Source: Zhihengliuella halotolerans
Lineage (GTDB): Bacteria; Actinomycetota; Actinomycetes; Actinomycetales; Micrococcaceae
Reading direction: 5' to 3'
Assembly: GCF_004217565.1 (NCBI RefSeq)
Contig: NZ_SHLA01000001.1
Span: 310,001-374,000, forward strand
Length of the DNA: 64,000 nt
In this document: positions 22,226 to 35,394 of the stretch, one piece after another
How positions within the stretch are numbered: position 1 is the first letter of the stretch
How the letters are laid out: the number at the start of each line of letters is the position of its first letter
Program-made: the position numbers and the translations under genes
The notes under the pieces: generated by a model
Database searches by the model: none
What the model was told of the DNA's origin: nothing
The model's input: only the letters and a program-made list of their open reading frames with translations

Positions 22226-22292
22226 CTAGTGCACGGCCTCCGCGCTGTCGATGGCCGTTTGTCTTAATGCGGCAAAGAATCTCCGCCATACC

Positions 22293-22322
22293 TTCCGGTA
22301 GCCGAGCATCCGTGCCTATACT
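22293..22322 (+). promoter_or_regulatory. promoter of the first giant surface protein gene
   Basis: TTCCGG (22293-22298) and TATACT (22317-22322), 18 bases apart, followed by CAGGG. The same TATACTCAGGG with a TTCCCG box at the same distance occurs before the second giant gene (30656-30685), and sequence conservation between the two begins here. Confidence 0.65.
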
Positions 22323-22328
22323 CAGGGT

Positions 22329-22594
22329 GTTTCGTCCTGCTTGCAGGACGTGCGTCATCAGGCATCGGGGGGGACCCTTTGACAAGGACCCGAAAGCCAT
22401 GAAGCACGAAAACGTTGGGGACGCCGAAATTCCGCTGGGCACCAGATCCGCGGATCAGGCAGGCGCTGGATCTGCGCGCCGAAGAATTCTCTTTCAACCG
22501 TTGCGACGACGACGGTAACCTCCGCCCGGACCGCGCTCTCTCGCGTCCGCGGCCCTCTCCAACCCACCGCCCCGCCCGTTCCACTGAGTGAACG
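22329..22594 (+). promoter_or_regulatory. conserved structured leader RNA, copy 1
   Basis: Untranslated leader shared with the second giant gene. Helices: H1 CGTCCTG/CAGGACG with a CTTG loop (22333-22350); H2 GGC-TCGGG/CCCGA-GCC enclosing CCTT/AAGG (22361-22398); a nearly invariant stretch GCACGAA-ACGTTGGGGACGCCG (22401-22427, one variable base in each part); H3 GGCGC/GCGCC (22461-22480); H4 CGTTC/GAACG (22577-22594). H1 has a completely different sequence but the same position in copy 2, so pairing rather than sequence is conserved. An ORF starts at 22399 directly after H2, with its SD (AAGGA) in the 3' arm. I cannot match it to a known riboswitch class. Confidence 0.6.
22399..22518 (+). CDS. 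possible leader peptide, copy 1 (39 residues)
   Basis: An ATG follows AAGGA (spacing 10) and opens a 39-codon frame beginning MKHENVGDAEIPLG and ending ILFQPLRRRR. Copy 2 has a homologous frame beginning MEHEYVGDAATPPG. The last four arginine codons are CGA CGA CGA CGG, unusual in this genome, which prefers CGC. Substitutions between copies are not concentrated at third codon positions, so conservation may be at the RNA level and translation is uncertain. Confidence 0.3.
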   Translation: MKHENVGDAEIPLGTRSADQAGAGSARRRILFQPLRRRR

Positions 22595-22729
22595 CCTGAG
22601 CAGGGTGTCGCAGTTATCAACTCGCTCCTGTCGACCTTCGACGCGTCGACGTATCTATGCCAGTTCGCAGAAATAATTGAGCATTCTCGCTGGCGCCCGT
22701 GCACTCACTCGCATTCTTAAGAGGACGAC
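22595..22729 (+). other. divergent leader part and ribosome binding site
   Basis: Untranslated region with little similarity to copy 2 until about 22682, where ACTCACTCGCATTCTTAAGA and AGAGGACGAC again match. AGAGGA six bases before ATG 22730 is the ribosome binding site. No gene seen. Confidence 0.55.
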
Positions 22730-25700
22730 ATGTCACGACATCTCACCCGCGCGCACCGCACAGGGCTCCGCGCACTCAAATCTTTGCTGGCTATGGGGCT
22801 CGCTGCGGGACTGATGTTCTCCGGCAGCGTCGCGATGGCCGTCGCAGCAGAGGACGATTTCCCCGCCGCCGCGGAGGTCACTGCACAGACGGAACCGGAG
22901 GGTGAGGCGCCCGTCCAGAAGAATGCGAGCGTCGATGAGGAAACCCTTGTCGAGGAAGACGCGACGGACAAGGCGGAAGTCGCCGAGAAAACGGCTGACG
23001 AACCGGTCACCGAGGAGGAGGTGGCACCGAAGCCGGCGCCGGCAGAGGCGCCTGTGGCCGAGGAACCGGCTGCTGAGGAACCGGCTGCTGAGGAAAAAGT
23101 GGCACCCAAGCAGGAGAAAGCTGAGAAGCCCGCTGCTGAGGAGCCCGCAGTCGAGGAAGAGGCCCCGGAGGTGCTTTCGGCGGAGGTGTTTACGCCCTTC
23201 GCATCGTCAAGTGATTTCCTGCTGAATTGGCCGGCCGACATCGACATGGCGACCGATCCGATCGGAAATAACGATCCGACGGTGTATTCCCAAGGGTCGA
23301 AGGAGAACGATCCGAGCTCGTGGGATTACAGTGCTTCGGCGAGTTCGCCTGGTTCGGGTGATGTCGGGGACACGTGGGTTGCCGCTGACTATGTGGGGGA
23401 CGATGCCTGGTTGTGGTTGGCGTTCGAGCGGGTGACCGCGAACGGACAGATCGGGTATTTCCTGGAGTTGAACCAGTTGCCGTCCACGACGAATGCGAAC
23501 GGTGCGGACATCCCGGTGCGGAGTGTAGGCGATATCCGGTTGACATTCCCGGCGAATAATGATGCGTTCTCCACGCCGGTGATCGAGCGGTGGGACGGAT
23601 CCGGGTGGGTGGCGTCCAGCCTGCCGGCCGGTTCCTGGGACCACGTCGTGAGTCAGGAGGGCACGCTCGTCGAGTTCAAATTCAACCTCTCGGCGATCTT
23701 CGGCGGCGAGGACGGGATGCTGGATTGCGGCGAATTCGATTTCGCCAACATCATGCTGCGCTCGGCGGCGTCGGCGAGTCAGCAGTCCGAGCTGAAGGAT
23801 TTCGTCGGCGGCCAGATCGACGTGGACCTGTGCGCGGGGCTGAAGATCCTGAAGACGGACGAGAACGGGGTGCCGCTGGGCGGGGCCACGTTCGAGATCG
23901 ATCCGAATCCGCTGCCGGATGGCGAGGGCACGCTGACGATCACGGACAACGATGCGAACGATGCTGATCCGGCTGATGGTGTGATCGAACTGGCCGCGGT
24001 GAATCCGGGCGAGTACACGGTCACGGAGATCGAGGCGCCTGACGGGTATTTATTGCCGGCGGATCGGGACCAGGGTCCGTTGACGGTGGAGCCGGGTGGG
24101 AGTGTGACGTTCACGTTCGAAGATCCGGTGAAGTGGGTACCGCTGACGGTTGAGAAGAGCGTCGATGCCTCGTATTCGGTGTTGTACGAGTGGGACATCG
24201 AGAAGACGGTGGATCAGAGCCTGGTCGAGCAGTCGGGCACGACGGCGGCGTTCACGTACCTGGTCGAGGTGACCGAGGGTGCGCGGACAGCGTCGGACTT
24301 CGTGGTCGACGGGACGATCACGGTGGACAACCCGAATGCCGGTGCGATGGTCGCGACGGTGGAGGATGTCCTCGGCGACGGGACGGTGTGCGTGATCGAC
24401 GCGGCCGATGCTTCGGGTGCCGACGGTCTTCAGATCTCCTTCGAACCGGGGGAAACGGTGCTCGACTACGAGTGCGAGGTGGCTGAGGAGCCGGAGGAGC
24501 TCTCGGGGTCGAACGAGGTGTCGGTGGCGTGGAGCCGCGCTGACTACCCGCAGGAGCAGGACGACGTTGATGATCCGGGTAATGCTCCCGAGGGTGAGGC
24601 ATCGGCTAGTGAGGCGTTCGAGTGGACGGTGAACGAGACGGACGAGACGGTCACGATCGAGGACAGCCAGTTCGAGTTCGATCCCGCGTGGGAGATCACC
24701 TGGTCGGGCGAGGGCACGGTGCATGAGCAGGAGTACACCCTGGAGCGCGAGGTGCCCGCTGGCGAGTGCCAGACGTTCGACAACACCGCGACGATCGTTG
24801 AGACGCAGCAGTCCGACGACGCCGAGGCCACGTTGTGTGTGGGTGCTGATCTGGTGGTGGAGAAGAACGTGATCCACAGTTTCGACCGCACCTACCTGTG
24901 GGATATCGAGAAGACAGTGCTCGGTGATCAGCCGTTCGCGGCTGATCCGGAGACCGGGGATGTGACGGTTGAGTACGAGGTCACGGTTGGTCCGAATTCG
25001 TTCCAGGATTCGGGGTGGGCGATGCGTGGTGAGATCACGGTTGCGAACCCCAATGACTGGCAGGATATCGAGACCACGGTGAGCGACGCGGTCGACATCG
25101 GTGGCGGTGCTGAGTGCACCGTCATGGACGCCACGCGGGTGGTCGAGGCGAATGATTCTCTGGTGTTCGAGTACACGTGCACGTTCATGAGCGAGCCGGA
25201 GTACGACGGTGAGAACGTGGCGACGGCGGTGTGGGACGCGGAGGCCGCGTTCACGCCGAACGGCGAGGCCACGGGATCGGCGGAGGTTTCCGCCGATGAG
25301 TGGTCGGTGACGCCGATCAATGACACGGTCGTCGTCGAGGACGACCACTTCACCTTCGACCCGGCGTGGGAGATCACCTGGTCCGAGGACCTGGAGCCGG
25401 AGACGCGCACGTACGAACTGACGTGGAACGTGGGTGAGGCCGGTCGATGTGCCGAGTTCGTCAACGTCGCCAGTGTCATTGGCGATGACGATTTGCCGTT
25501 GGCTGAGGATGATGCTCTGGCCGAGGCCTGCCGGGAAGCGCCACTGGTCGTCGAGAAGACCATTGACGGCTCCTTCGACCGCCTCTACCTCTGGGATGTC
25601 GAGAAGGACGTCGACCAGACCGAGGTTACGGTGGGCGAGGACGACGCAATCCCCGAATTCGCCTATACGGTTGTCGCGACGCCGGGTGAAACCGAAGACG

Positions 25701-28700
25701 GCGAGTTCGAACTCGGCGGAACCATCACGATCGAGAACCCGAACACGTTCGAGTCCGGCTGGATCGTCGCCGAGGTCGAGGACACGATCTCGATCGAGGG
25801 CCTCGTCTGCACGATCGACGACGACGACCTGAACGAGGACGGCACGGTCACGATCGAGCCGAACAGCACGGTCGAACTCGACTACACGTGCACGACCGAC
25901 GGCGTGACCGCCGAGTCCGAGGGCGAGAACACTGCGGTGGTCACCTGGAACGACGGCGAGCGGTTCGCGACGAGCGGCCCGGTCCCGTTCGGTTTCGAGT
26001 TGGATGGCGAGACCGATAAGTCGGTGGAGGTCTTCGATGACAAGACCGATCCCGAGGGTGAGCCGGTGCTGCTGGGTTCGGCGGAGTGGAACGCGGAGGG
26101 AACGCCCACCGAGTTCGAGTACGTGCTCGAGTTGGACGCCCCGGCTGGTGAATGCGTGGCGTACACGAACACGGCGTGGATCGTCGTCGACGGCGATGAC
26201 CCGTCGGACGAGGTCGACGTGACGGTCTGCCGTCAGGCGGGCCTGTTGATCTCTAAGACGGTCGATGCAGATTACGACAGGTTGTACCTGTGGGACATTC
26301 TCAAGGACGTGGACTCCACGATGGTCACGGTCGGTGAGGAGGATGCGGCGCCTGCGTTCAACTACACGGTGATTGCGACGCCGGGCGGGTTCGAGGATTC
26401 GGGCTGGACGATGTCCGGCACGATCACGGTCGAGAACCCGAACGACGAGGGTCAGGATCCGGTGACGGTGGACGTGACGGACGTTCCGTCGGTTGAGGGC
26501 GTGGACTCGTGTTCCGTCATCGACGGCGAGGGCGTGACGATCGCTTCCGGTGATTCGGTGGTCCTGGACTACGAATGTGTGATCAGCGGGCAGCCTCAGT
26601 ATCAGGGTGAGAACACGGCCGTGGTGACGTGGCCGAACGGTGAGTCGTCGGCGACCGTCGGCGTCGGTTTCGAGTTGGATGGCGAGACCGATAAGTCGGT
26701 GGAGGTCTTCGATGACAAGACCGATCCCGAGGGTGAGCCGGTGCTGCTGGGTTCGGCGGAGTGGAACGCGGAGGGAACGCCCACCGAGTTCGAGTACGTG
26801 CTCGAGTTGGACGCCCCGGCTGGTGAATGCGTGGCGTACACGAACACGGCGTGGATCGTCGTCGACGGCGATGACCCGTCGGACGAGGTCGACGTGACGG
26901 TCTGCCGTCAGGCGGGCCTGTTGATCTCTAAGACGGTCGATGCAGATTACGACAGGTTGTACCTGTGGGACATTCTCAAGGACGTGGACTCCACGATGGC
27001 CACGGTCGGTGAGGAGGATGCGGCGCCTGCGTTCAACTACACGGTGATTGCGACGCCGGGCGGGTTCGAGGATTCGGGCTGGACGATGTCCGGCACGATC
27101 ACGGTCGAGAACCCGAACGACGAGGGTCAGGATCCGGTGACGGTGGACGTGACGGACGTTCCGTCGGTTGAGGGCGTGGACTCGTGTTCCGTCATCGACG
27201 GCGAGGGCGTGACGATCGCTTCCGGTGATTCGGTGGTCCTGGACTACGAATGTGTGATCAGCGGGCAGCCTCAGTATCAGGGTGAGAACACGGCCGTGGT
27301 GACGTGGCCGAACGGTGAGTCGTCGGCGACCGTCGGCGTCGGTTTCGAGTTGGATGGCGAGACCGATAAGTCGGTGGAGGTCTTCGATGACAAGACCGAT
27401 CCCGAGGGTGAGCCGGTGCTGCTGGGTTCGGCGGAGTGGAACGCGGAGGGAACGCCCACCGAGTTCGAGTACGTGCTCGAGTTGGACGCCCCGGCTGGTG
27501 AATGCGTGGCGTACACGAACACGGCGTGGATCGTCGTCGACGGCGACGACCCGCAGGATTCGGTGACTGTTACCGCCTGCCGCGAGGCCGCACTTGTGGT
27601 CGACAAGTCGGCTGGTGGTTCCTTCGATCGGCTCTACTTCTGGGACATCGCCAAGGACGTCGACCGGACCGAGGTCACGGTCGGCGAAGAGGACGACGCG
27701 CCGGAGTTCAATTACACGGTGATCGCCACCCCCGGTGACCACGAGGACAGTGGCTTCGAGCTCGGCGGAACCATCCTGGTCCAGAACGAGAACTCGTTCG
27801 ACCACGCGTGGATCGTCGCCGATGTCGAGGACACGGTCTCGATCGAGTCTCTGGTCTGCACGATCGAGGACGATGACCTGAACGAGGATGGCACGGTCAC
27901 GATCCCGCCGGGCAGCTCGGTGTTCCTCGACTACACGTGCACGACCGGCGGGGTGAGTGCCGAGACGGAAGGCGAGAACACCGCCGTCGTCACGTGGCAC
28001 GACGGCGAACGGACCGCGACCAGCGGGCCAGTGCCGTTCGGGTTCGACCTGGACGAGGAGACCGACAAGGTCGTCGACGTCCTGGACGACAAGACCAACC
28101 CGGAGGCGGACCCGGTGACGCTGGGTTCGGCGGAGTGGAACGCGGAGGGAACGCCCACCGAGTTCGAGTATTCGCTGGTCCTCGACGCACCGATCGGCGA
28201 CTGCGCGGGCTACACCAACACCGCCCACGTGGAGGTCACGGGTGCGGATCCGCAGGCCGAAGCAAGCGTGAGTGTCTGCCGCGAGGCGGCGCTCGTGGTC
28301 GCGAAGTCGATCGAGGCGAGCTTCGATCGCACCTACCTGTGGGACCTGACCAAAGAGCGCGCCGACGGTGACGAGGACTTCGTCGACGCCGACGAGAACG
28401 GTGAGGCGACGGTGCCGTACGTCATCGCCGTCACCTCCGGCGGGTACGCGGATTCGGGCTTCGAGCTCGGCGGAAGCATCGAGATCACCAACCCGAACGT
28501 GTTCGAGGGCGGCGGGATCGTGGCCGAGGTCGAGGATACGGTCTCCGTGGACGGCCTGGTCTGCACCATCGCCGGCCTGAACGAGGAAGGCACGGTCGCC
28601 ATCGCTCCCGAATCGTCCGTCACGCTCGACTACACGTGTACGACCGAGGGCGTGACCGCCGAGACCGAGGGTGAGAACACCGCGATCGCCACGTGGCACG

Positions 28701-30535
28701 ACGGCGAAAGGTCCGCAACCAGCGGCCCGGTCCCGTTCGGCTTCGAGTTGGATGCCGAGACGGATCGCACGGTCGACGTGTACGACGACGAGGCGCAGCC
28801 CGGTTCCGAGGGCGAGCTCCTCGGGACGGTGTCCTGGGACGAGGTCGATACCGAGGACCCGTCGTGGTCCAAGGAGTTCGAGCAGGAACTGACGTTCACG
28901 GTCGATCCCGGCACCTGCGGTACCTTCACTAACACCGCGTGGGTCGTGGTCACGGGTGAGAACCCGCAGGACGATGCGACGGTGACGGTTTGCCACGAGG
29001 CGGATCTGCTGGTCTCGAAGACGGCGGACGCGAGCTACGACCGCCTCTACCTCTGGGAGATCGACAAGGAGGTCGACCGCACCACGGTCACCGTGGGCGA
29101 GGACAACGCGGCGCCGCAGTTCGGCTACAAGGTGATCGCGACGCCGGGAGACTACGAGGATTCGAACTGGATGCTCTCCGGTGAGATCACCGTCATGAAC
29201 CCGAACTCCGAGGAGCAGGGTCCGATCACGGCCACGGTGGTGGACGTGCCCGGCGTCGAGGGTATCGAATCCTGTGAGGTCGTCGGCGGCGAGGAAGTCG
29301 TCATCGATCCGGGGGAGACCGTAACTCTCGCTTACGAGTGCGTGATCACCGGGCAGCCGGCCTACGAGGGCGAGAACACCGTTGAGGTCGCGTGGGACGG
29401 TGGGTCCGTCACGGCGGGCACTGGCATCGCCTTCGGCCTGGAGACGGAGACGGACAAGATCGTCGACGTCTACGACGACAAGACGGATCCGGAAGGTGAT
29501 CCCGTGCTGCTGGGCTCTGCGGAGTGGAACGCGGAGGGAACGGCGACCGAGTTCGACTACGTGCTCGAGCTGGATGCGCCGGCCGGCCAGTGCGTGGACT
29601 ACACCAACACGGCCTGGATCGTCGTAGAAGGCGACGTTCCGCAGGATTCGGTGACAGTCACCCCCTGCCGCGAGGCCGCACTCATGGTCGACAAGTCGAT
29701 TAATGGCTCCTTCGACCGCCTGTACCTGTGGGACGTCGCCAAGGACGTCGACCGGACCGAGGTGACGGTCGGCGCGGAGGACGAGGCGCCGGAGTTCAAC
29801 TACACGGTCGTCGCGACCCCGGGCGACACCGAGGACAGCGGTTTCGAGCTGGACGGATCGATCACGATCCAGAACCCGAACATGTTCGATGCCGCCTGGA
29901 TCGTCGCCGAGGTCGAGGACACGGTCTCGATCGAGTCCCTGGTCTGCACGATCGAGGACGAGGACCTGAACGAGGACGGAACGGTCACGATCGCGCCGAA
30001 TAGTTCGGTCACGTTGGACTACTCGTGCACGACCGACGGCGCCACCGCGGAGACGGAAGGCGAGAACACCGCCGTCGTCACGTGGCACGACGGCGAACGG
30101 TCCGCGACGAGCGGCCCGGTGCCGTTCGGCTTCGACCTCGACGCCGAGACCGATAAGACGGTTGAGGTGGTTGATGATCAGACGGATCCGGGTGCTGAGC
30201 CGGTGGTGTTGGGTTCGGCGGACTGGAATGCGGAGGGTGAGGCGACGGAGTTTGAGTACGCGTTGACTCATGATGCGAAGGCTGGTCAGTGTGCTTCGTT
30301 TACGAACACGGCGATGATCGTGGAGACGGGGGCGCAGGCGCAGGCGGAGGTGGAGACGTGCCGCGAGGCAGCACCGGCTCCCACTTCGGAACCGACGCCA
30401 GCGCCCGTCCCGATCCCCGCACCGACGCCGCTGCCGAGGACGGGATCGCAGATCATGTGGCTGGCCATCGTGGGTCTCGGGCTCCTGATCGTCGGAGCCG
30501 GGGCGATGATCGGCCGGAACCGCCGGGACGTCTGA
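22730..30535 (+). CDS. giant LPXTG-anchored surface protein with nine ~230-residue repeats
   Basis: 2601 residues. Signal peptide with basic start and hydrophobic core LKSLLAMGLAAGLMFSG, cleaved near AMA (about residue 38). Residues 43-155 are Glu/Pro/Ala-rich. A globular domain (157-368) precedes a SpaA/Cna-B-like prealbumin domain (370-466, LKILKTDENGVPLGGATFEI ... YTVTEIEAPDGYLLP). Nine beta-rich repeats begin near residues 470, 704, 938, 1170, 1395, 1620, 1853, 2092 and 2316, each opening like VVEKTIDGSFDRLYLWDVEK and carrying about four cysteines. After a Pro-rich linker comes LPRTG, a hydrophobic segment and RNRRDV: a sortase signal. Probable adhesin, pilus-like or cell-wall stalk protein; no sortase gene lies in the window. 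It contains a recent 675-bp duplication. Confidence 0.88.
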   Translation: MSRHLTRAHRTGLRALKSLLAMGLAAGLMFSGSVAMAVAAEDDFPAAAEVTAQTEPEGEAPVQKNASVDEETLVEEDATDKAEVAEKTADEPVTEEEVAPKPAPAEAPVAEEPAAEEPAAEEKVAPKQEKAEKPAAEEPAVEEEAPEVLSAEVFTPFASSSDFLLNWPADIDMATDPIGNNDPTVYSQGSKENDPSSWDYSASASSPGSGDVGDTWVAADYVGDDAWLWLAFERVTANGQIGYFLELNQLPSTTNANGADIPVRSVGDIRLTFPANNDAFSTPVIERWDGSGWVASSLPAGSWDHVVSQEGTLVEFKFNLSAIFGGEDGMLDCGEFDFANIMLRSAASASQQSELKDFVGGQIDVDLCAGLKILKTDENGVPLGGATFEIDPNPLPDGEGTLTITDNDANDADPADGVIELAAVNPGEYTVTEIEAPDGYLLPADRDQGPLTVEPGGSVTFTFEDPVKWVPLTVEKSVDASYSVLYEWDIEKTVDQSLVEQSGTTAAFTYLVEVTEGARTASDFVVDGTITVDNPNAGAMVATVEDVLGDGTVCVIDAADASGADGLQISFEPGETVLDYECEVAEEPEELSGSNEVSVAWSRADYPQEQDDVDDPGNAPEGEASASEAFEWTVNETDETVTIEDSQFEFDPAWEITWSGEGTVHEQEYTLEREVPAGECQTFDNTATIVETQQSDDAEATLCVGADLVVEKNVIHSFDRTYLWDIEKTVLGDQPFAADPETGDVTVEYEVTVGPNSFQDSGWAMRGEITVANPNDWQDIETTVSDAVDIGGGAECTVMDATRVVEANDSLVFEYTCTFMSEPEYDGENVATAVWDAEAAFTPNGEATGSAEVSADEWSVTPINDTVVVEDDHFTFDPAWEITWSEDLEPETRTYELTWNVGEAGRCAEFVNVASVIGDDDLPLAEDDALAEACREAPLVVEKTIDGSFDRLYLWDVEKDVDQTEVTVGEDDAIPEFAYTVVATPGETEDGEFELGGTITIENPNTFESGWIVAEVEDTISIEGLVCTIDDDDLNEDGTVTIEPNSTVELDYTCTTDGVTAESEGENTAVVTWNDGERFATSGPVPFGFELDGETDKSVEVFDDKTDPEGEPVLLGSAEWNAEGTPTEFEYVLELDAPAGECVAYTNTAWIVVDGDDPSDEVDVTVCRQAGLLISKTVDADYDRLYLWDILKDVDSTMVTVGEEDAAPAFNYTVIATPGGFEDSGWTMSGTITVENPNDEGQDPVTVDVTDVPSVEGVDSCSVIDGEGVTIASGDSVVLDYECVISGQPQYQGENTAVVTWPNGESSATVGVGFELDGETDKSVEVFDDKTDPEGEPVLLGSAEWNAEGTPTEFEYVLELDAPAGECVAYTNTAWIVVDGDDPSDEVDVTVCRQAGLLISKTVDADYDRLYLWDILKDVDSTMATVGEEDAAPAFNYTVIATPGGFEDSGWTMSGTITVENPNDEGQDPVTVDVTDVPSVEGVDSCSVIDGEGVTIASGDSVVLDYECVISGQPQYQGENTAVVTWPNGESSATVGVGFELDGETDKSVEVFDDKTDPEGEPVLLGSAEWNAEGTPTEFEYVLELDAPAGECVAYTNTAWIVVDGDDPQDSVTVTACREAALVVDKSAGGSFDRLYFWDIAKDVDRTEVTVGEEDDAPEFNYTVIATPGDHEDSGFELGGTILVQNENSFDHAWIVADVEDTVSIESLVCTIEDDDLNEDGTVTIPPGSSVFLDYTCTTGGVSAETEGENTAVVTWHDGERTATSGPVPFGFDLDEETDKVVDVLDDKTNPEADPVTLGSAEWNAEGTPTEFEYSLVLDAPIGDCAGYTNTAHVEVTGADPQAEASVSVCREAALVVAKSIEASFDRTYLWDLTKERADGDEDFVDADENGEATVPYVIAVTSGGYADSGFELGGSIEITNPNVFEGGGIVAEVEDTVSVDGLVCTIAGLNEEGTVAIAPESSVTLDYTCTTEGVTAETEGENTAIATWHDGERSATSGPVPFGFELDAETDRTVDVYDDEAQPGSEGELLGTVSWDEVDTEDPSWSKEFEQELTFTVDPGTCGTFTNTAWVVVTGENPQDDATVTVCHEADLLVSKTADASYDRLYLWEIDKEVDRTTVTVGEDNAAPQFGYKVIATPGDYEDSNWMLSGEITVMNPNSEEQGPITATVVDVPGVEGIESCEVVGGEEVVIDPGETVTLAYECVITGQPAYEGENTVEVAWDGGSVTAGTGIAFGLETETDKIVDVYDDKTDPEGDPVLLGSAEWNAEGTATEFDYVLELDAPAGQCVDYTNTAWIVVEGDVPQDSVTVTPCREAALMVDKSINGSFDRLYLWDVAKDVDRTEVTVGAEDEAPEFNYTVVATPGDTEDSGFELDGSITIQNPNMFDAAWIVAEVEDTVSIESLVCTIEDEDLNEDGTVTIAPNSSVTLDYSCTTDGATAETEGENTAVVTWHDGERSATSGPVPFGFDLDAETDKTVEVVDDQTDPGAEPVVLGSADWNAEGEATEFEYALTHDAKAGQCASFTNTAMIVETGAQAQAEVETCREAAPAPTSEPTPAPVPIPAPTPLPRTGSQIMWLAIVGLGLLIVGAGAMIGRNRRDV
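25991..27546 (+). repeat. 675-bp tandem duplication inside the giant surface gene
   Basis: Unit A 25991-26665 and unit B 26666-27340 are both 675 bp (225 codons) and differ, as far as I can read, at one base (T 26325 versus C 27000, changing Val to Ala). A third partial unit, 27341-27546, continues identical for 206 bases before diverging. The other repeats of the gene are only similar at protein level, so this duplication is very recent or maintained by recombination. Confidence 0.9.
30143..30352 (+). repeat. segment nearly identical to the 3' end of the paralogous gene
   Basis: These 210 bases match 35032-35241 with only scattered differences, including many synonymous T-ending codons (GAT, GTT, GGT) that contrast with the C/G-ending codons just upstream. 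The pattern suggests gene conversion or exchange between the two paralogues. Confidence 0.75.
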
Positions 30536-30580
30536 CGGAAACTGCGACCGCCGCCAATGAGAGGTTGCCGCGGCAGTGAA

Positions 30581-30618
30581 GGCGGGGGTGGAGTGTCAAG
30601 CGACACTCCGCCCCCGCC
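30581..30618 (+). terminator. terminator of the first giant surface gene
   Basis: GGCGGGGGTGGAGTGTC and GACACTCCGCCCCCGCC form a 17-bp stem with one G-U pair and an AAGC loop, 45 bases after the stop codon. Confidence 0.8.
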
Positions 30619-30655
30619 GTCGTTCAGTCTCTGCGGCAAGAAGCCTCTGTCATCA

Positions 30656-30685
30656 TTCCCGTGAGGGGCATCTTGTGCTTATACT
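30656..30685 (+). promoter_or_regulatory. promoter of the second giant surface protein gene
   Basis: TTCCCG (30656-30661) and TATACT (30680-30685) with an 18-base spacer, the same layout as at 22293-22322. It comes after the terminator of gene 1, so the two giant genes are separate transcripts. Confidence 0.65.
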
Positions 30686-30691
30686 CAGGGC

Positions 30692-30967
30692 GTGTCACCC
30701 GTCACAGGGTGGTCGCGTGTAAGGCATCGGGGGGGAACCTTTAGCAAGGACCCGAAAGCCATGGAACACGAATACGTTGGGGACGCCGCTACTCCGCCGG
30801 GCATGAGGCCCGAGGACCAGGCAGGCGCTGAAGCCCCGCGCCACTCGCATCTCTTGAAGCCGTCGCGACGACGACAGCGACCTCTCACGCAGACCGCAGC
30901 CTAGCCACAGCCGATCTCGGCTACCGGAGGCTGCGGCTACTCGCCTGTCCGTTCCAACTGCGGAACG
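30692..30967 (+). promoter_or_regulatory. conserved structured leader RNA, copy 2
   Basis: Counterpart of 22329-22594. H1 is CACCC/GGGTG (30696-30711), at the same distance (11 bases) from the -10 box but with other bases than copy 1. H2 (30723-30760) is nearly identical to copy 1, differing mainly in its terminal loop. The invariant stretch with ACGTTGGGGACGCCG follows, then H3 GGCGC/GCGCC and H4 CGTTCC/GGAACG (30950-30967). A copy-specific hairpin CCGCAGCC ... GGCTGCGG enclosing AGCCGA/TCGGCT lies at 30894-30936. Total leader length to the start codon is about 413 bases versus about 401 in copy 1. Confidence 0.6.
30761..30904 (+). CDS. possible leader peptide, copy 2 (47 residues)
   Basis: A 47-codon frame from ATG 30761, with AAGGA in the 3' arm of helix H2 as SD. 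It starts MEHEYVGDAATPPGMRPEDQ and contains HLLKPSRRRQRP with three CGA codons. It corresponds to the 39-residue frame of copy 1 but has a longer C-terminus. Coding status is uncertain for the same reasons. Confidence 0.3.
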   Translation: MEHEYVGDAATPPGMRPEDQAGAEAPRHSHLLKPSRRRQRPLTQTAA

Positions 30968-31104
30968 CGGGCGCACGAGCCCAGCAGGCTGAATCTCTCA
31001 CCTCCGGCGGGTCGGATCGTCCAACGCTATTCCAGCCAGCTCGCGCTATCTATCGATCATTCGCGCTGGCCTTCCGTACTCACCCGCATCTTTAAGAGGA
31101 CGAC

Positions 31105-34100
31105 ATGTCACGACATCTCAACCGCGCCCCACGCAGTGGGCCTCGCGGACTCAAATCTTTGCTGGCCATGGGGCTCGCCGCAGGTCTGATGTTCTCCGGC
31201 AGCATCGCCATGGCTGCGGCCGACGAGGAGATCTTCCCGGCGGCCGAAGACCAGTCGGTTACGACAGAGGAAAACACCAACGAGGAGCTCGAGTCGAGTT
31301 CGGCTGAGGAGCCTGTACTCGAGGAGGAGCCCGCCGGCGAGGACGAATCGGCCGAGGAGCCGGCAGTAGAAGTGGCTCCCGTTGACGAATCGGCAGCCGA
31401 GGAGGAGCAGGCCGAGGTGCCTGCCGCTGAGGAGAAGGCGGCACCGAAGCAGGAACCGGCTGCTGAGGCGCCCGCAGTCGAGGAAGAGGCCCCGGAAGTG
31501 CTTTCGGCGGAGGTGTTCACGCCCTTCGCATCGTCGAGTGATTTTCTGCTGAATTGGCCGGCCGACATCGACATGGCGACGGATCCGATTGGCAACGCGG
31601 ATACGACGGTCTATTCGAATGGTTCCAAGGAGAACGACCTTTCGTCGTGGAACTACAACGAGTCGGCTGGTTCGCCTGGTTCGGGTGATGTCGGGGACAC
31701 GTGGGTTGCCGCTGACTATGTGGGGGACGATGCTTGGCTGTGGCTGGCGTTCGAGCGGGTCACGTCGAATGGTCAGATCGGGTATTTCCTCGAGCTGAAT
31801 CAGCTGGCCTCGACGACGAATGCGAACGGGGCGGATATCCCGGTGCGCAGCGTGGGCGATCTCCGGTTCGTGTTCCCGGCGAATAATGATGCGTTCTCCA
31901 CGCCTGAGGTTCAGGTGTGGGACGGGTCGGGCTGGGTGACGACAACGTTGCCGGCTGGCTCCTGGGATCATGTGGTGAGCCAGGACGAGACGCTGGTCGA
32001 GTTCAAGTTCAATCTCTCGGCGATCTTCGGTGGCGACGATGGGATGCTCGAGTGCGGTGATTTCGATTTCGCGAACATCATGCTGCGCTCGGCAGCGTCG
32101 GCGAGCCAGCAGTCGGAGTTGAAGGACTTCGTCGGCGGTCAGATCGATCTCGATCTGTGTTCGAGTCTGAAGATCCTGAAGACGGATGAGAACGGGGTGC
32201 CGCTCGGTGGTGCGTCGTTCGAGATCGATCCGAATCCGCTGCCTGGTGGCGAGGGGACGTTGACGGTCACGGACAACGATGCCAACGATGCTGATCCTGC
32301 TGACGGGACGATCGAGTTGGCTGAGGTGAATCCGGGGGAGTACACGGTGACCGAGGTCGTGGCGCCGGACGGGTACTTGTTGCCGGCTGATCGGGACCAG
32401 GGGCCGCTGACGGTTGAGCCGGGTGGGAGCGTGACGTTCACGTTCGAGGACCCGATCGCCTGGGAACCGCTGAGCGTCGAGAAGTCGATCGAGGCCTCCT
32501 ACCAGGTCGACTACACCTGGGGCATCGACAAGTCGGTGGACCAGACCCTGATCGAGCAGGCCGGGACGACCGCTGACTTCACGTATTTGGTCGAGGTGTT
32601 CGAGGGCGATCGGACCGCGACCGATTTCGTCGCCGGCGGAATGATCACCGTGGACAACCCGAACGCGGGGTCGATGGTGGCCACGGTAGAGGACGTGCTC
32701 GGTGACGGGACGGTCTGCGTGATCGACGCCGCCGACGCCAGCGGTGCTGACGGTCATCAGATCGCCTTCGGCCCCGGGGAAACGGTGCTCGACTACGAGT
32801 GCGAGATCGGCGCCGAACCGGAAAGCGAGTCCGGCTCCAACGCCGTCACGCTGACCTGGAGCAACGCTGACTACCCGCAGGAGCAGTCCCACGTCGACGA
32901 CCCGGACAACGCCGGTGAGGCGTCCGCCACTGACACGGTCGATTTCACGTGGACGACGACGGAGGCGAACGAAGCCGTCACCGTCGAGGACAGCCAGTTC
33001 ACGTTTGACCCGGAGTGGAGCATCACATGGGGCTCCGAAGAGGACGGCGTGTACGAGAACACCTACACGATCACCCGCGAGGTTCCAGCTGGCGAGTGCC
33101 AGACGTTCGATAACACGGTGACGATCGTCGAGACGGGTCAGTCTGACACCGTCGAGGCGACGTTGTGTGTGGGTGCGGATCTGGTCGTGGAGAAGAACGT
33201 GATCCACAGCTTCGACCGGACGTATCTGTGGGATATCGAGAAGACCGTGCTCGGCGACCAGCCGTTCGAGGCTGATCCCGAGACTGGAGACGTGACGGTC
33301 GAGTACGAGGTCACGGTGGGTCCGAATTCGTTCCAGGATTCGGGTTGGGCGATGAGTGGCGAGATTACAGTTGCGAACCCCAATGACTGGCAGGACATCG
33401 AGACGACAGTGAGCGACGCCGTCGACATCGGCGGCGGGGCCGAGTGTGCCGTCATGGATGCTACGCGGCTGATCGGGGCCGGCGAGAGCCAGACCTTCGA
33501 CTACAACTGCACGTTCACGAGCGAGCCGGAGTACGAGGGTGAGAACGTGGCGACCGCGGTGTGGGATGCCGACGCCGCTTCGACGCCGACCGGCGAAGCC
33601 ACGGGCACTGCGGAGGTCGCTGCTGACGAGTGGTCGGTCACGCCGATCAATGACACGGTCCTCGTCGAGGACGACCACTTCACCTTCGATCCGGCTTGGG
33701 AAGTCACCTGGTCGGATGGCATGGAACCGGAGAAGCGCACGTACGAGCTGACGTGGAACGTGGGCGAGGCCGGCACGTGTGCCGAGTTCGTGAATGTCGC
33801 CAGCGTGGTGGGCGATGAGGGCCTGACCTTGGCTGAGGACGACGCTCTTGCCGAAGCCTGTCGTGAGGCACCGTTGGTGGTCGAGAAGACGATTGATGGT
33901 TCCTTCGATCGGACGTATTTGTGGGATGTGGTGAAGGAGCGTGCTGAGGGTGTCGATGAGTTTGTCGATGCTGATGAGAATGGTGAGGCGACGGTCCCGT
34001 ATCTGATCTCGGTGTCGAGTGAGGGTTATGCCGATGATGGTTTCGAGCTGGGCGGGACGATCTCGATTGAGAATCCGAACATGTTCGAGTCGGGCTGGAT

Positions 34101-35394
34101 TGTTGCTGAGGTCGAGGACACGATCTCGGTTGAGTCCCTGGTCTGCACGGTCGAGGACGAGGATCTGAACGAGGACGGGACGGTGACGATCGCGCCGAAC
34201 AGCACGGTCGAGCTGGACTACTCGTGCACGACCGAGGGTGCGACCGCGGAGACGACCGGCAATAACACGGCGGTTGTCACCTGGCATGAGGGTGAGCGGA
34301 GCGCGTCGAGTTCTCCGGTGGAGTTCGCTTTCGAGTTGGATGCGGAGACGGATGAGACCGTCGAGGTGTTCGACGACGAGGCGGTGCCCGGTTCCGAGGG
34401 CGAGCTGCTGGGGACGGTGTCGTGGGACGAGGTTGATCCCGAGGACGCGTCCTGGTCGAAGGAGTTCGAGCAGGAGCTGGTGTTCACGGTGGAGTCGGGG
34501 ACGTGCGAGTCGTTCACGAACACGGCCTGGGTCGTGGTCACGGGTGAGAACCCGATGGATGATGCGGACGTGACGGTCTGTCACGAGGCGGATCTGCTGG
34601 TTTCGAAGACGGCGGATGCGAGCTTCGATCGGTTGTATCTGTGGGAGATCGCCAAGGAGGTCGATCGGAGCAAGGTGACGGTCGCTCATGATGGTGCTGC
34701 TCCGGAGTTCGAGTACCTGGTTTCGGCGACGCCGGGTGGGGTCGAGGACTCGGGGTGGATGCTCTCCGGTGAGATCACGGTCATGAATCCGAACTCGGAG
34801 GAGCAGGGTCCGATCGAGGCGACGGTGGCGGACGTGCCCGGTGTCGAGGGGATCGAGTCCTGTGTGATCGAGGGCGGCGGCGACGTCGTGATCGATCCGG
34901 GGGCGACGGTCACGTTGGCGTACGAGTGCCTGATCGAGGGGCAGCCGGAGTACGAGGGTGAGAACGTGGTGGAGGTCGCCTGGGATGGCGGGTCTGTCAC
35001 GGCGAGTACTGCGGTCGTGTTCGAGTTGGATGCCGAGACTGATAAGTCGGTTGAGGTGGTTGATGATCAGACGGATCCGGGTGCTGAGCCGGTGGTGTTG
35101 GGTTCGGCGGACTGGAATGCGGAGGGTGAGTCGACGGAGTTCGAGTATGTGTTGACTCATGATGCGAAGGCTGGTCAGTGTGCTTCGTTCACGAACACGG
35201 CGATGATCGTGGAGACGGGTGCGGACGCGCAGGCGGAGGTCGAGGCTTGCCGTGAGGCGGCACCGGTTCCCACACCGACACCGGGGCCGCTGCCGAAGAC
35301 GGGCGCCCAGGCTGGGTGGCTGGCTCTGGTGGGACTCGGATTGTTGATGGCCGGAGCCGGGGCGTTGATCGCTCGGAACCGCCGCGACGCCTGA
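31105..35394 (+). CDS. second giant LPXTG-anchored surface protein, four repeats
   Basis: 1429 residues, paralogue of the preceding gene. Signal peptide nearly the same (SLLAMGLAAGLMFSGSIAMA), acidic Glu/Pro/Ala region (about 43-140), the same globular domain (about 142-353) and SpaA-like domain (about 355-450), then four repeats starting near residues 454, 691, 921 and 1161. It ends LPKTGAQAGWLALVG..., a hydrophobic helix and RNRRDA, a sortase signal. The first two repeats match repeats 1 and 2 of the larger protein; the third resembles its repeat 7 and the fourth its repeat 8, so internal repeats were lost or gained. AGAGGA precedes ATG 31105. Codon usage shifts to T-ending codons in 33890-34140 and 34560-35240. 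Confidence 0.88.
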   Translation: MSRHLNRAPRSGPRGLKSLLAMGLAAGLMFSGSIAMAAADEEIFPAAEDQSVTTEENTNEELESSSAEEPVLEEEPAGEDESAEEPAVEVAPVDESAAEEEQAEVPAAEEKAAPKQEPAAEAPAVEEEAPEVLSAEVFTPFASSSDFLLNWPADIDMATDPIGNADTTVYSNGSKENDLSSWNYNESAGSPGSGDVGDTWVAADYVGDDAWLWLAFERVTSNGQIGYFLELNQLASTTNANGADIPVRSVGDLRFVFPANNDAFSTPEVQVWDGSGWVTTTLPAGSWDHVVSQDETLVEFKFNLSAIFGGDDGMLECGDFDFANIMLRSAASASQQSELKDFVGGQIDLDLCSSLKILKTDENGVPLGGASFEIDPNPLPGGEGTLTVTDNDANDADPADGTIELAEVNPGEYTVTEVVAPDGYLLPADRDQGPLTVEPGGSVTFTFEDPIAWEPLSVEKSIEASYQVDYTWGIDKSVDQTLIEQAGTTADFTYLVEVFEGDRTATDFVAGGMITVDNPNAGSMVATVEDVLGDGTVCVIDAADASGADGHQIAFGPGETVLDYECEIGAEPESESGSNAVTLTWSNADYPQEQSHVDDPDNAGEASATDTVDFTWTTTEANEAVTVEDSQFTFDPEWSITWGSEEDGVYENTYTITREVPAGECQTFDNTVTIVETGQSDTVEATLCVGADLVVEKNVIHSFDRTYLWDIEKTVLGDQPFEADPETGDVTVEYEVTVGPNSFQDSGWAMSGEITVANPNDWQDIETTVSDAVDIGGGAECAVMDATRLIGAGESQTFDYNCTFTSEPEYEGENVATAVWDADAASTPTGEATGTAEVAADEWSVTPINDTVLVEDDHFTFDPAWEVTWSDGMEPEKRTYELTWNVGEAGTCAEFVNVASVVGDEGLTLAEDDALAEACREAPLVVEKTIDGSFDRTYLWDVVKERAEGVDEFVDADENGEATVPYLISVSSEGYADDGFELGGTISIENPNMFESGWIVAEVEDTISVESLVCTVEDEDLNEDGTVTIAPNSTVELDYSCTTEGATAETTGNNTAVVTWHEGERSASSSPVEFAFELDAETDETVEVFDDEAVPGSEGELLGTVSWDEVDPEDASWSKEFEQELVFTVESGTCESFTNTAWVVVTGENPMDDADVTVCHEADLLVSKTADASFDRLYLWEIAKEVDRSKVTVAHDGAAPEFEYLVSATPGGVEDSGWMLSGEITVMNPNSEEQGPIEATVADVPGVEGIESCVIEGGGDVVIDPGATVTLAYECLIEGQPEYEGENVVEVAWDGGSVTASTAVVFELDAETDKSVEVVDDQTDPGAEPVVLGSADWNAEGESTEFEYVLTHDAKAGQCASFTNTAMIVETGADAQAEVEACREAAPVPTPTPGPLPKTGAQAGWLALVGLGLLMAGAGALIARNRRDA
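35032..35241 (+). repeat. segment nearly identical to the 3' end of the first giant gene
   Basis: Partner of 30143-30352, equal in length. See that entry for the recombination argument. Confidence 0.75.

Follow-up and report, generated by a model that had tools for sequence, protein, structure and literature searches.

The two leaders considered here stand in front of two tandem genes for sortase-anchored adhesins, A and B, in a 64-kb stretch (the window) of the 3.58-Mb genome of Zhihengliuella halotolerans. We propose that they are selected 5′ regions of this adhesin family and that each may be an attenuator, in which a short leader open reading frame (ORF) would control a downstream hairpin, H5, acting as the switch; we give this reading, which is built on sequence comparison, a probability of about 0.4. 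The leader ORF, its CGA codons and H5 are features absent from the account of the first-pass annotation of this DNA, which had taken the leaders for a cis-regulatory RNA, be it a riboswitch, a protein-binding leader or an attenuator. The part of that claim which calls for a selected, structured cis-element of adhesin genes is borne out by sister orthologues, by a slowly changing core and by the folds of the hairpins H1 and H5, whereas a riboswitch or protein-binding leader finds no support in Rfam and sits poorly with an element so far found in one genus.

The leader occurs in six copies, 406–425 nucleotides (nt) in length, in four of the five Zhihengliuella genomes (DNA and model searches): copies A and B in the window, single copies in G001 and G002, and two copies in G003 (G003A and G003B). 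The adhesin gene is present in the same four genomes, with all six copies carrying the leader, and the fifth Zhihengliuella genome yielded neither leader nor adhesin gene. Folding support is expressed, per hairpin and over these six leaders, as the z of the fold against shuffled sequences. The leader ORF and H5 lie in the window as follows.

22399..22518, forward strand: leader ORF A, putatively translated, 39 codons and a stop, ending CGA CGA CGA CGG TAA
30761..30904, forward strand: leader ORF B, putatively translated, 47 codons and a stop, with CGA CGA CGA CAG CGA
22524..22553, forward strand: hairpin H5 of copy A, short form, z −2.5
30894..30936, forward strand: hairpin H5 of copy B, long form, z −4.0, outer stem with 9 of 9 pairs

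All six leaders contain an ORF of 39–47 codons that opens at a conserved ATG and stops 199–212 nt upstream of the adhesin start. In each of them the stop codon falls no more than 11 nt from the foot of H5 (shuffle P 0.05–0.08 each, for a range that was chosen after the data had been seen and for sequences that are related to one another). The arginine (Arg) codon CGA makes up 22 of the 44 Arg codons of the leader ORFs as opposed to 7 of 306 in six genes of the window, and the 22 in-frame occurrences compare with 9 in the other two frames together. The last CGA ends 11–17 nt before H5 in all six leaders, and four of the six have three in-frame CGA codons in a row (shuffle P 0.001–0.010). The position of the stop at H5, the excess of CGA in frame and the kept distance of the last CGA thus speak for translation of the leader ORF, as far as sequence can do so.

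H5, located downstream of the leader ORF, has a mean z of −3.2 and is, together with H1, the best-supported helix of the leader. Its outer stem forms 9 of 9 standard pairs in copy B and in G001, with six of these pairs changed on both sides (the register of the G001 stem having been set by hand), and the outer pairs are kept at 8 of 9 in G003B and 7 of 9 in G003A; leaders A and G002 have a shorter H5. When the leaders are folded at full length, H5 is likely to form in A, B and G001 (0.86–1.0).

H1 stands close behind the promoter-like box, and a further hairpin, H4, lies near the other end of the leader.

22333..22350, forward strand: hairpin H1 of copy A, CGTCCTG..CAGGACG, z −2.7
30696..30711, forward strand: hairpin H1 of copy B, CACCC..GGGTG, z −3.3
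22659..22694, forward strand: hairpin H4 of copy A, preceding the gene A ribosome site, arms GCCAG/CTGGC kept in all six leaders, mean z −1.7
31035..31070, forward strand: hairpin H4 of copy B, GCCAG/CTGGC arms in 6 of 6 leaders, mean z −1.7

The first-pass annotation had described H1 as pairing kept at the same place without conservation of sequence, and this description proved accurate: 19 of 36 aligned bases differ between copies A and B, both of which fold. Over the six leaders the z of H1 runs from −1.9 to −3.9 (mean −3.0), with up to 20 of 37 positions differing. Taken as wholes, the two window leaders fold no better than their shuffles (z 0.4 and −1.05).

Between H1 and the leader ORF lies the most constant part of the leader, a core that contains a potential helix, H2.

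22361..22398, forward strand: H2 core of copy A, with AAGGA as a possible ribosome site of the leader ORF, 3 of 38 positions changed between copies
30723..30760, forward strand: H2 core of copy B, 3 of 38 positions changed between copies, no covariation

The near-invariance of this core had been noted earlier and stands; the helix that was thought to go with it does not receive the same backing, as the aligned leaders hold no compensatory change and the folding energy of H2 is not unusual (mean z −0.3), so that the constancy of H2 is best described as a constancy of sequence. Around H2, a closing helix can be read by eye from the alignment: three leaders have CGUGU/ACACG, two have CGUGC/GCACG, and G001 has CCAUG/CAUGG. 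We also considered that H1 and this closing helix might form a switch, but by the same reading it is not kept in G001.

That the core is held by selection follows from its rate of change. Among five of the leaders it differs at 0–3 of 37–38 positions and from G001 at 5–6, and the first 500 codons of the adhesin genes diverge at 0.32–0.54 of 4-fold degenerate sites over all pairs. For the two window copies, the 3 changes in 38 compare with 70 of 200 4-fold sites (P 5 × 10−4), and the five pairs tested in this way gave P values from 5 × 10−4 to 9 × 10−9. A second yardstick, the 3′ part of the leader itself, was added because exchange or homogenisation of the genes makes 4-fold sites a flawed measure. 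Against the segment after the ORF, the window copies give 3 of 38 versus 81 of 140 (P 1 × 10−8), and six of seven pairs tested gave P values from 0.002 to 1 × 10−8, the pair of leader A and G002 (P 0.07) not being significant.

How these parts might work together can be set out step by step. Transcription would start just after the TATACT box, and a ribosome could bind the AAGGA of the H2 core and begin translation at the ATG that follows. It would then be slowed on the rare CGA codons, the last of which ends at the conserved distance before H5. A ribosome stalled at CGA, or the absence of a ribosome, should leave the foot of H5 free, and a ribosome that has reached the stop codon, close to H5 in every leader, is predicted to occlude the 5′ arm of H5. 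Transcription would then either end early or read through, setting the amount of adhesin, with a Rho-dependent or translational exit possible outside G001. Most known attenuators of the leader-ORF kind belong to amino-acid and antibiotic-resistance genes, and if the proposal is true, one placed before giant adhesins would tie attachment to the state of translation. A bolder version, which we regard as rather doubtful, holds that the switch, by stalling at CGA, couples attachment to the speed of translation at one poorly decoded Arg codon and not to a metabolite, and that the leader ORF was split from an extended signal peptide, its start region being fused to the adhesin in a sister genus.

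The beginning of this sequence of events concerns the promoter-like box; TATACTCAGGG is located at 22317 and 30680.

22317..22323, forward strand: TATACTC, likely −10 box of adhesin gene A, kept in 6 of 6 leaders
30680..30686, forward strand: TATACTC, likely −10 box of adhesin gene B, kept in 6 of 6 leaders

The distance from TATACT to the adhesin start codon is 413 nt in leader A and 425 nt in leader B. A scan with the sigma-70 consensus found no promoter in any of the six leaders and no −35 match in leaders A and B; from the conserved box we infer a promoter at TATACT.

For the end of the sequence of events, G001 offers a canonical intrinsic terminator within the leader ORF, in the form of a 15-bp stem with TTTTTGTTGT behind it. 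A weaker hairpin sits roughly where G001 has its terminator in the leader ORFs of both window copies, and has no significant folding support.

22462..22480, forward strand: GGCGC/GCGCC hairpin within leader ORF A, z −0.85, not significant
30824..30842, forward strand: GGCGC/GCGCC hairpin within leader ORF B, z 0.28, not significant

The stretch behind the ORF has more C than G in all six leaders, at a C/G ratio of 1.3–1.9 (the value for G003A being taken from 50 nt); a C-rich stretch of this kind would suit Rho, and proves nothing. The ribosome site of the adhesin gene itself is paired to a varying degree (0.01–0.50 unpaired).

Several observations weigh against the attenuator. Chance alone would give an open frame of 39 codons with a P of 0.41–0.61, and the ratio of nonsynonymous to synonymous change (dN/dS) of the leader ORF is 0.38–1.12 over 15 pairs and mostly near 1, so that the leader peptide is hardly conserved. 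The GC content of third codon positions in the ORF (0.51–0.68) is closer to that of non-coding DNA than to the 0.86 of genes, and since non-coding DNA would carry more CGA than genes do, part of the CGA contrast is expected on this account. The number of in-frame CGA codons is in itself weak against shuffles (P 0.04–0.47), the run is reduced to two in G003B (P 0.07), and G001 has a single CGA and no run. The bases of the CGA run can also pair into a small hairpin (mean z −1.95), which blurs the argument from the codons. H5 is improbable in the full-length folds of G002, G003A and G003B (0.02–0.33), and H2 is predicted to mask AAGGA incompletely, 29–84% being unpaired in folds of the first 110 nt. 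Finally, the terminator scan that recovered the G001 signal found no canonical terminator in the other five leaders, and the exit there could consequently be Rho-dependent or translational.

The alternatives place the function of the leader elsewhere, and none of those that ascribe it to a sensor, an operator, a NusG-like loading site or mRNA stabilisation explains H5 and the geometry of the ORF together. A possible, if less probable, reading is that the leader binds a ligand or a protein, with the H2 core sensing a metabolite or an RNA-binding protein and the open frame being incidental. The core is indeed the most constant part, its loops included, H1 and H5 are folded RNA elements, and in Clostridioides difficile and Bacillus thuringiensis cyclic di-GMP (c-di-GMP) riboswitches are known as structured leaders before genes whose surface proteins are sortase-anchored or bind collagen. 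The Zhihengliuella leaders differ from these in matching no Rfam riboswitch family. The Rfam check that bears on a sensor was negative throughout: at the gathering threshold, the whole window gave only a tRNA, and at a relaxed threshold the leaders gave 3 and 16 chance-like matches, with no riboswitch among them, be it of the c-di-GMP, c-di-AMP, ZTP, cobalamin or any other family. The lack of covariation in H2 and the occurrence before one gene family in one genus also tell against a sensor, which would leave the positions of the stop codon and of the CGA codons unexplained. Restriction to a single gene family or genus is unusual for a metabolite riboswitch. A likeness of CGGGGGGGAACC to the cores of c-di-AMP and c-di-GMP riboswitches was dropped because Rfam was silent, and control by a CsrA-type protein was set aside, as the csrA profile PF02599 had no match in the own genome (it was found in 3 of 14 control genomes).

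It is also conceivable, though improbable, that the core functions as DNA, the dyad TCGGG..CCTT..AAGG..CCCGA downstream of the promoter being an operator for a transcription factor and the RNA fold being secondary. Both arms of the dyad are constant without compensatory change, which suits a DNA site, and the dyad is close behind the promoter-like box. An operator does not account for RNA hairpins, H1 and H5, that are kept while their sequence changes; there are only two sites in the genome, and the asymmetric G run would be atypical of an operator. Quite unlikely, too, is the view that the structured 5′ ends do no more than make the mRNA stable, the constant core serving as a standby site for ribosomes or a barrier to RNase. 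It draws on the presence of H1 near the likely 5′ end in all six leaders despite their different sequences, yet stabilisation needs neither a constant core of 38 nt nor an ORF stop kept at H5.

Antitermination by RfaH at ops and by LoaP acts on long units for surface structures through an element near the promoter. A similar loading site for a NusG-like factor, letting RNA polymerase cross adhesin genes of 4–8 kb, would fit an invariable element located close to the promoter of such long surface genes, and the likeness to RfaH/ops and LoaP, which serve long units, is in this position; here the element is known from the leader sequence and the recruited factor would be hypothetical. This reading leaves both the ORF geometry and H5 unexplained, and we consider it very unlikely.

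The weakest alternative takes the likeness of the leaders for no more than what is left of a recent tandem duplication that copied the gene together with the DNA upstream of it. The genes are indeed paralogues in tandem, and their within-genome 4-fold divergence at the low end of the range points to partial homogenisation, but the core is far slower than both the 4-fold sites and the 3′ part of the leader, and core and length are kept in three other genomes, so that a recent duplication fails to explain the leaders and is hardly credible.

The attenuator has its closest known counterpart in the ilvB-II motif of Corynebacterium, which has the look of a structured RNA, occurs a single time and at a single place in each genome, and was interpreted as an attenuator with an upstream ORF (PMC10272879). 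Shared by the two are a single gene and a single genomic place, a leader upstream of the gene, a start codon at a conserved motif in frame with a stop, and regulatory codons; they differ in that the ORFs of ilvB-II are usually 15–17 codons long, rich in branched-chain amino acids and placed before a biosynthesis gene, whereas the Zhihengliuella leader has 39–47 codons, rare Arg codons and an adhesin gene, and its regulation is predicted only. By this precedent, a motif that resembles a riboswitch in its constant core and in hairpins kept with changed sequence may be the start of an ORF followed by an attenuator.

A second point of comparison is genus g23, in the same family, where five genomes (L091, L092, L093, L094 and L100) have distant adhesin homologues of 30–38% identity. 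Their leaders have more stable folds than shuffled sequences (z −2.3 to −4.1) and hold 3–5 copies of TTGGGG (shuffle P 0.001 or less each), several of them in predicted hairpin loops; at a relaxed threshold, Rfam has no family for the leaders of L091–L094. Unlike in Zhihengliuella, the TTGGGG copies take the place of the H2 core and the start codon is in frame with the adhesin ORF itself. In four of the five genomes the adhesin ORF contains a GTG, with GTTGGGGAC 12 nt behind it, and the same 12-nt spacing from start to GTTGGGGAC is found in Zhihengliuella, exactly in four of the six leaders and with one change in G003A. Of 295 family genomes, 4 contain the pattern TTGGGG..RTG-N12-GTTGGGGAC, and all 4 belong to g23. 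On the strength of one shared 9-mer, the leader ORF may once have been the start of the adhesin.

Within the window, the first-pass annotation had singled out the leaders as the only intergenic DNA shared between two loci, and their positions and this singularity were both confirmed. Comparison of the window with itself by BLAST gave 36 off-diagonal pairs, among them the leader pair (22268–22871 versus 30632–31246, 73%, E 1.7 × 10−46), which extends into the starts of the adhesin genes; the two pairs outside the adhesin region measure 26–39 bp each, and no other non-coding match is of comparable size. In the own genome, only the two window copies were found at E ≤ 0.1. A DNA search of 295 family genomes matched 37 at E ≤ 0.01, of which 4 are Zhihengliuella and the other 33 do not exceed 40 bits. 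A covariance model of the closing helix and H2 (R1) was searched in 345 family and 347 order genomes; outside the genus it gave weak matches in 30 genomes, at no more than 31.5 bits, compared with 69.5–97.9 bits for members. Of these 30 outside loci 15 were re-scored, with 8 alignments viewed and 7 stretches read as DNA; those viewed lack the G7 core, look like chance and were not accepted as homologues. By the criterion of the first-pass annotation, which asked for further homologues before unrelated surface genes, these searches brought none to light. A pattern scan of genome contigs returned four stretches, three from the genus and one Trueperaceae match read as coding DNA, and a scan of viral contigs returned none. 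In the order, distant adhesin homologues are present in 8 of 332 genomes, two of them Zhihengliuella; seven distant order homologue loci have neither TCGGGGGGGA nor GTTGGGGAC on either strand, the gene starts of L138, L139 and L143 being unsettled. So far, these searches suggest that the leader is peculiar to a single genus and a single gene family, and no description of it was found in the open-access literature searched.

The two kinds of leader appear to be old. G003 holds both, one beside a thiolase gene as in A and one, judged by eye, behind the end of an LPXTG gene as in B, and the H1 sequences group by kind and not by genome (10 of 36 differences between A and G003A and 9 of 36 between B and G003B, compared with the 19 of 36 between A and B). 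The single copy of G001 stands behind a phenol-hydroxylase-like gene and before rpoB; because of this different neighbourhood, the leader can be said to go with the adhesin gene and not with the upstream neighbour. Leader A and that of G002 differ at 1 of 37 positions in H1 and 12 of 140 after the ORF, with their genes differing at 79 of 182 4-fold sites, which suggests that the body of the adhesin was exchanged or homogenised behind a kept leader. In this same comparison (window 22317–24200 with L085), amino-acid identity over the first 500 codons behind the near-identical leaders is only 71%. Within a genome, the 4-fold divergence between copies is 0.35 in the window and 0.32 in G003, at the low end of the range, and this suggests gene conversion of the coding parts in both genomes. 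An old pair of A and B leaders with later partial homogenisation of the genes is suggested by these comparisons. The recent duplication that the first-pass annotation had named as a possible refutation is contradicted, as both kinds recur in G003 and the core is constant while its flanks change.

The two adhesin genes stand in tandem and encode proteins that combine a SpaA prealbumin-like domain with long repeats and an anchor of the LPXTG type.

22730..30535, forward strand: adhesin gene A, 2601 amino acids, SpaA domain, LPXTG-type anchor
31105..35394, forward strand: adhesin gene B, 1429 amino acids, SpaA domain, LPXTG-type anchor

They are paralogues with 82% identity over 2.5 kb in the self-comparison of the window, and are flanked by a thiolase gene on one side and, on the other, by a phenol-hydroxylase-like gene with rpoB and rpoC behind it. 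Among named protein relatives the best, at 83%, comes from Z. halotolerans. The region (window 18624–45323) places the adhesin genes in the interval from an rplJ-like gene (ribosomal protein L10) to rpoB-rpoC, and in G001, too, the adhesin stands immediately before rpoB. A long GC-rich inverted repeat with no T run is present at 30565–30620, after adhesin gene A and before leader B, and may be the transcription end of adhesin gene A. Adhesin A itself contains, at 25989–27723, two stretches of about 1 kb, 94.6% identical to each other and offset by 675 bp, which form a young internal tandem repeat.

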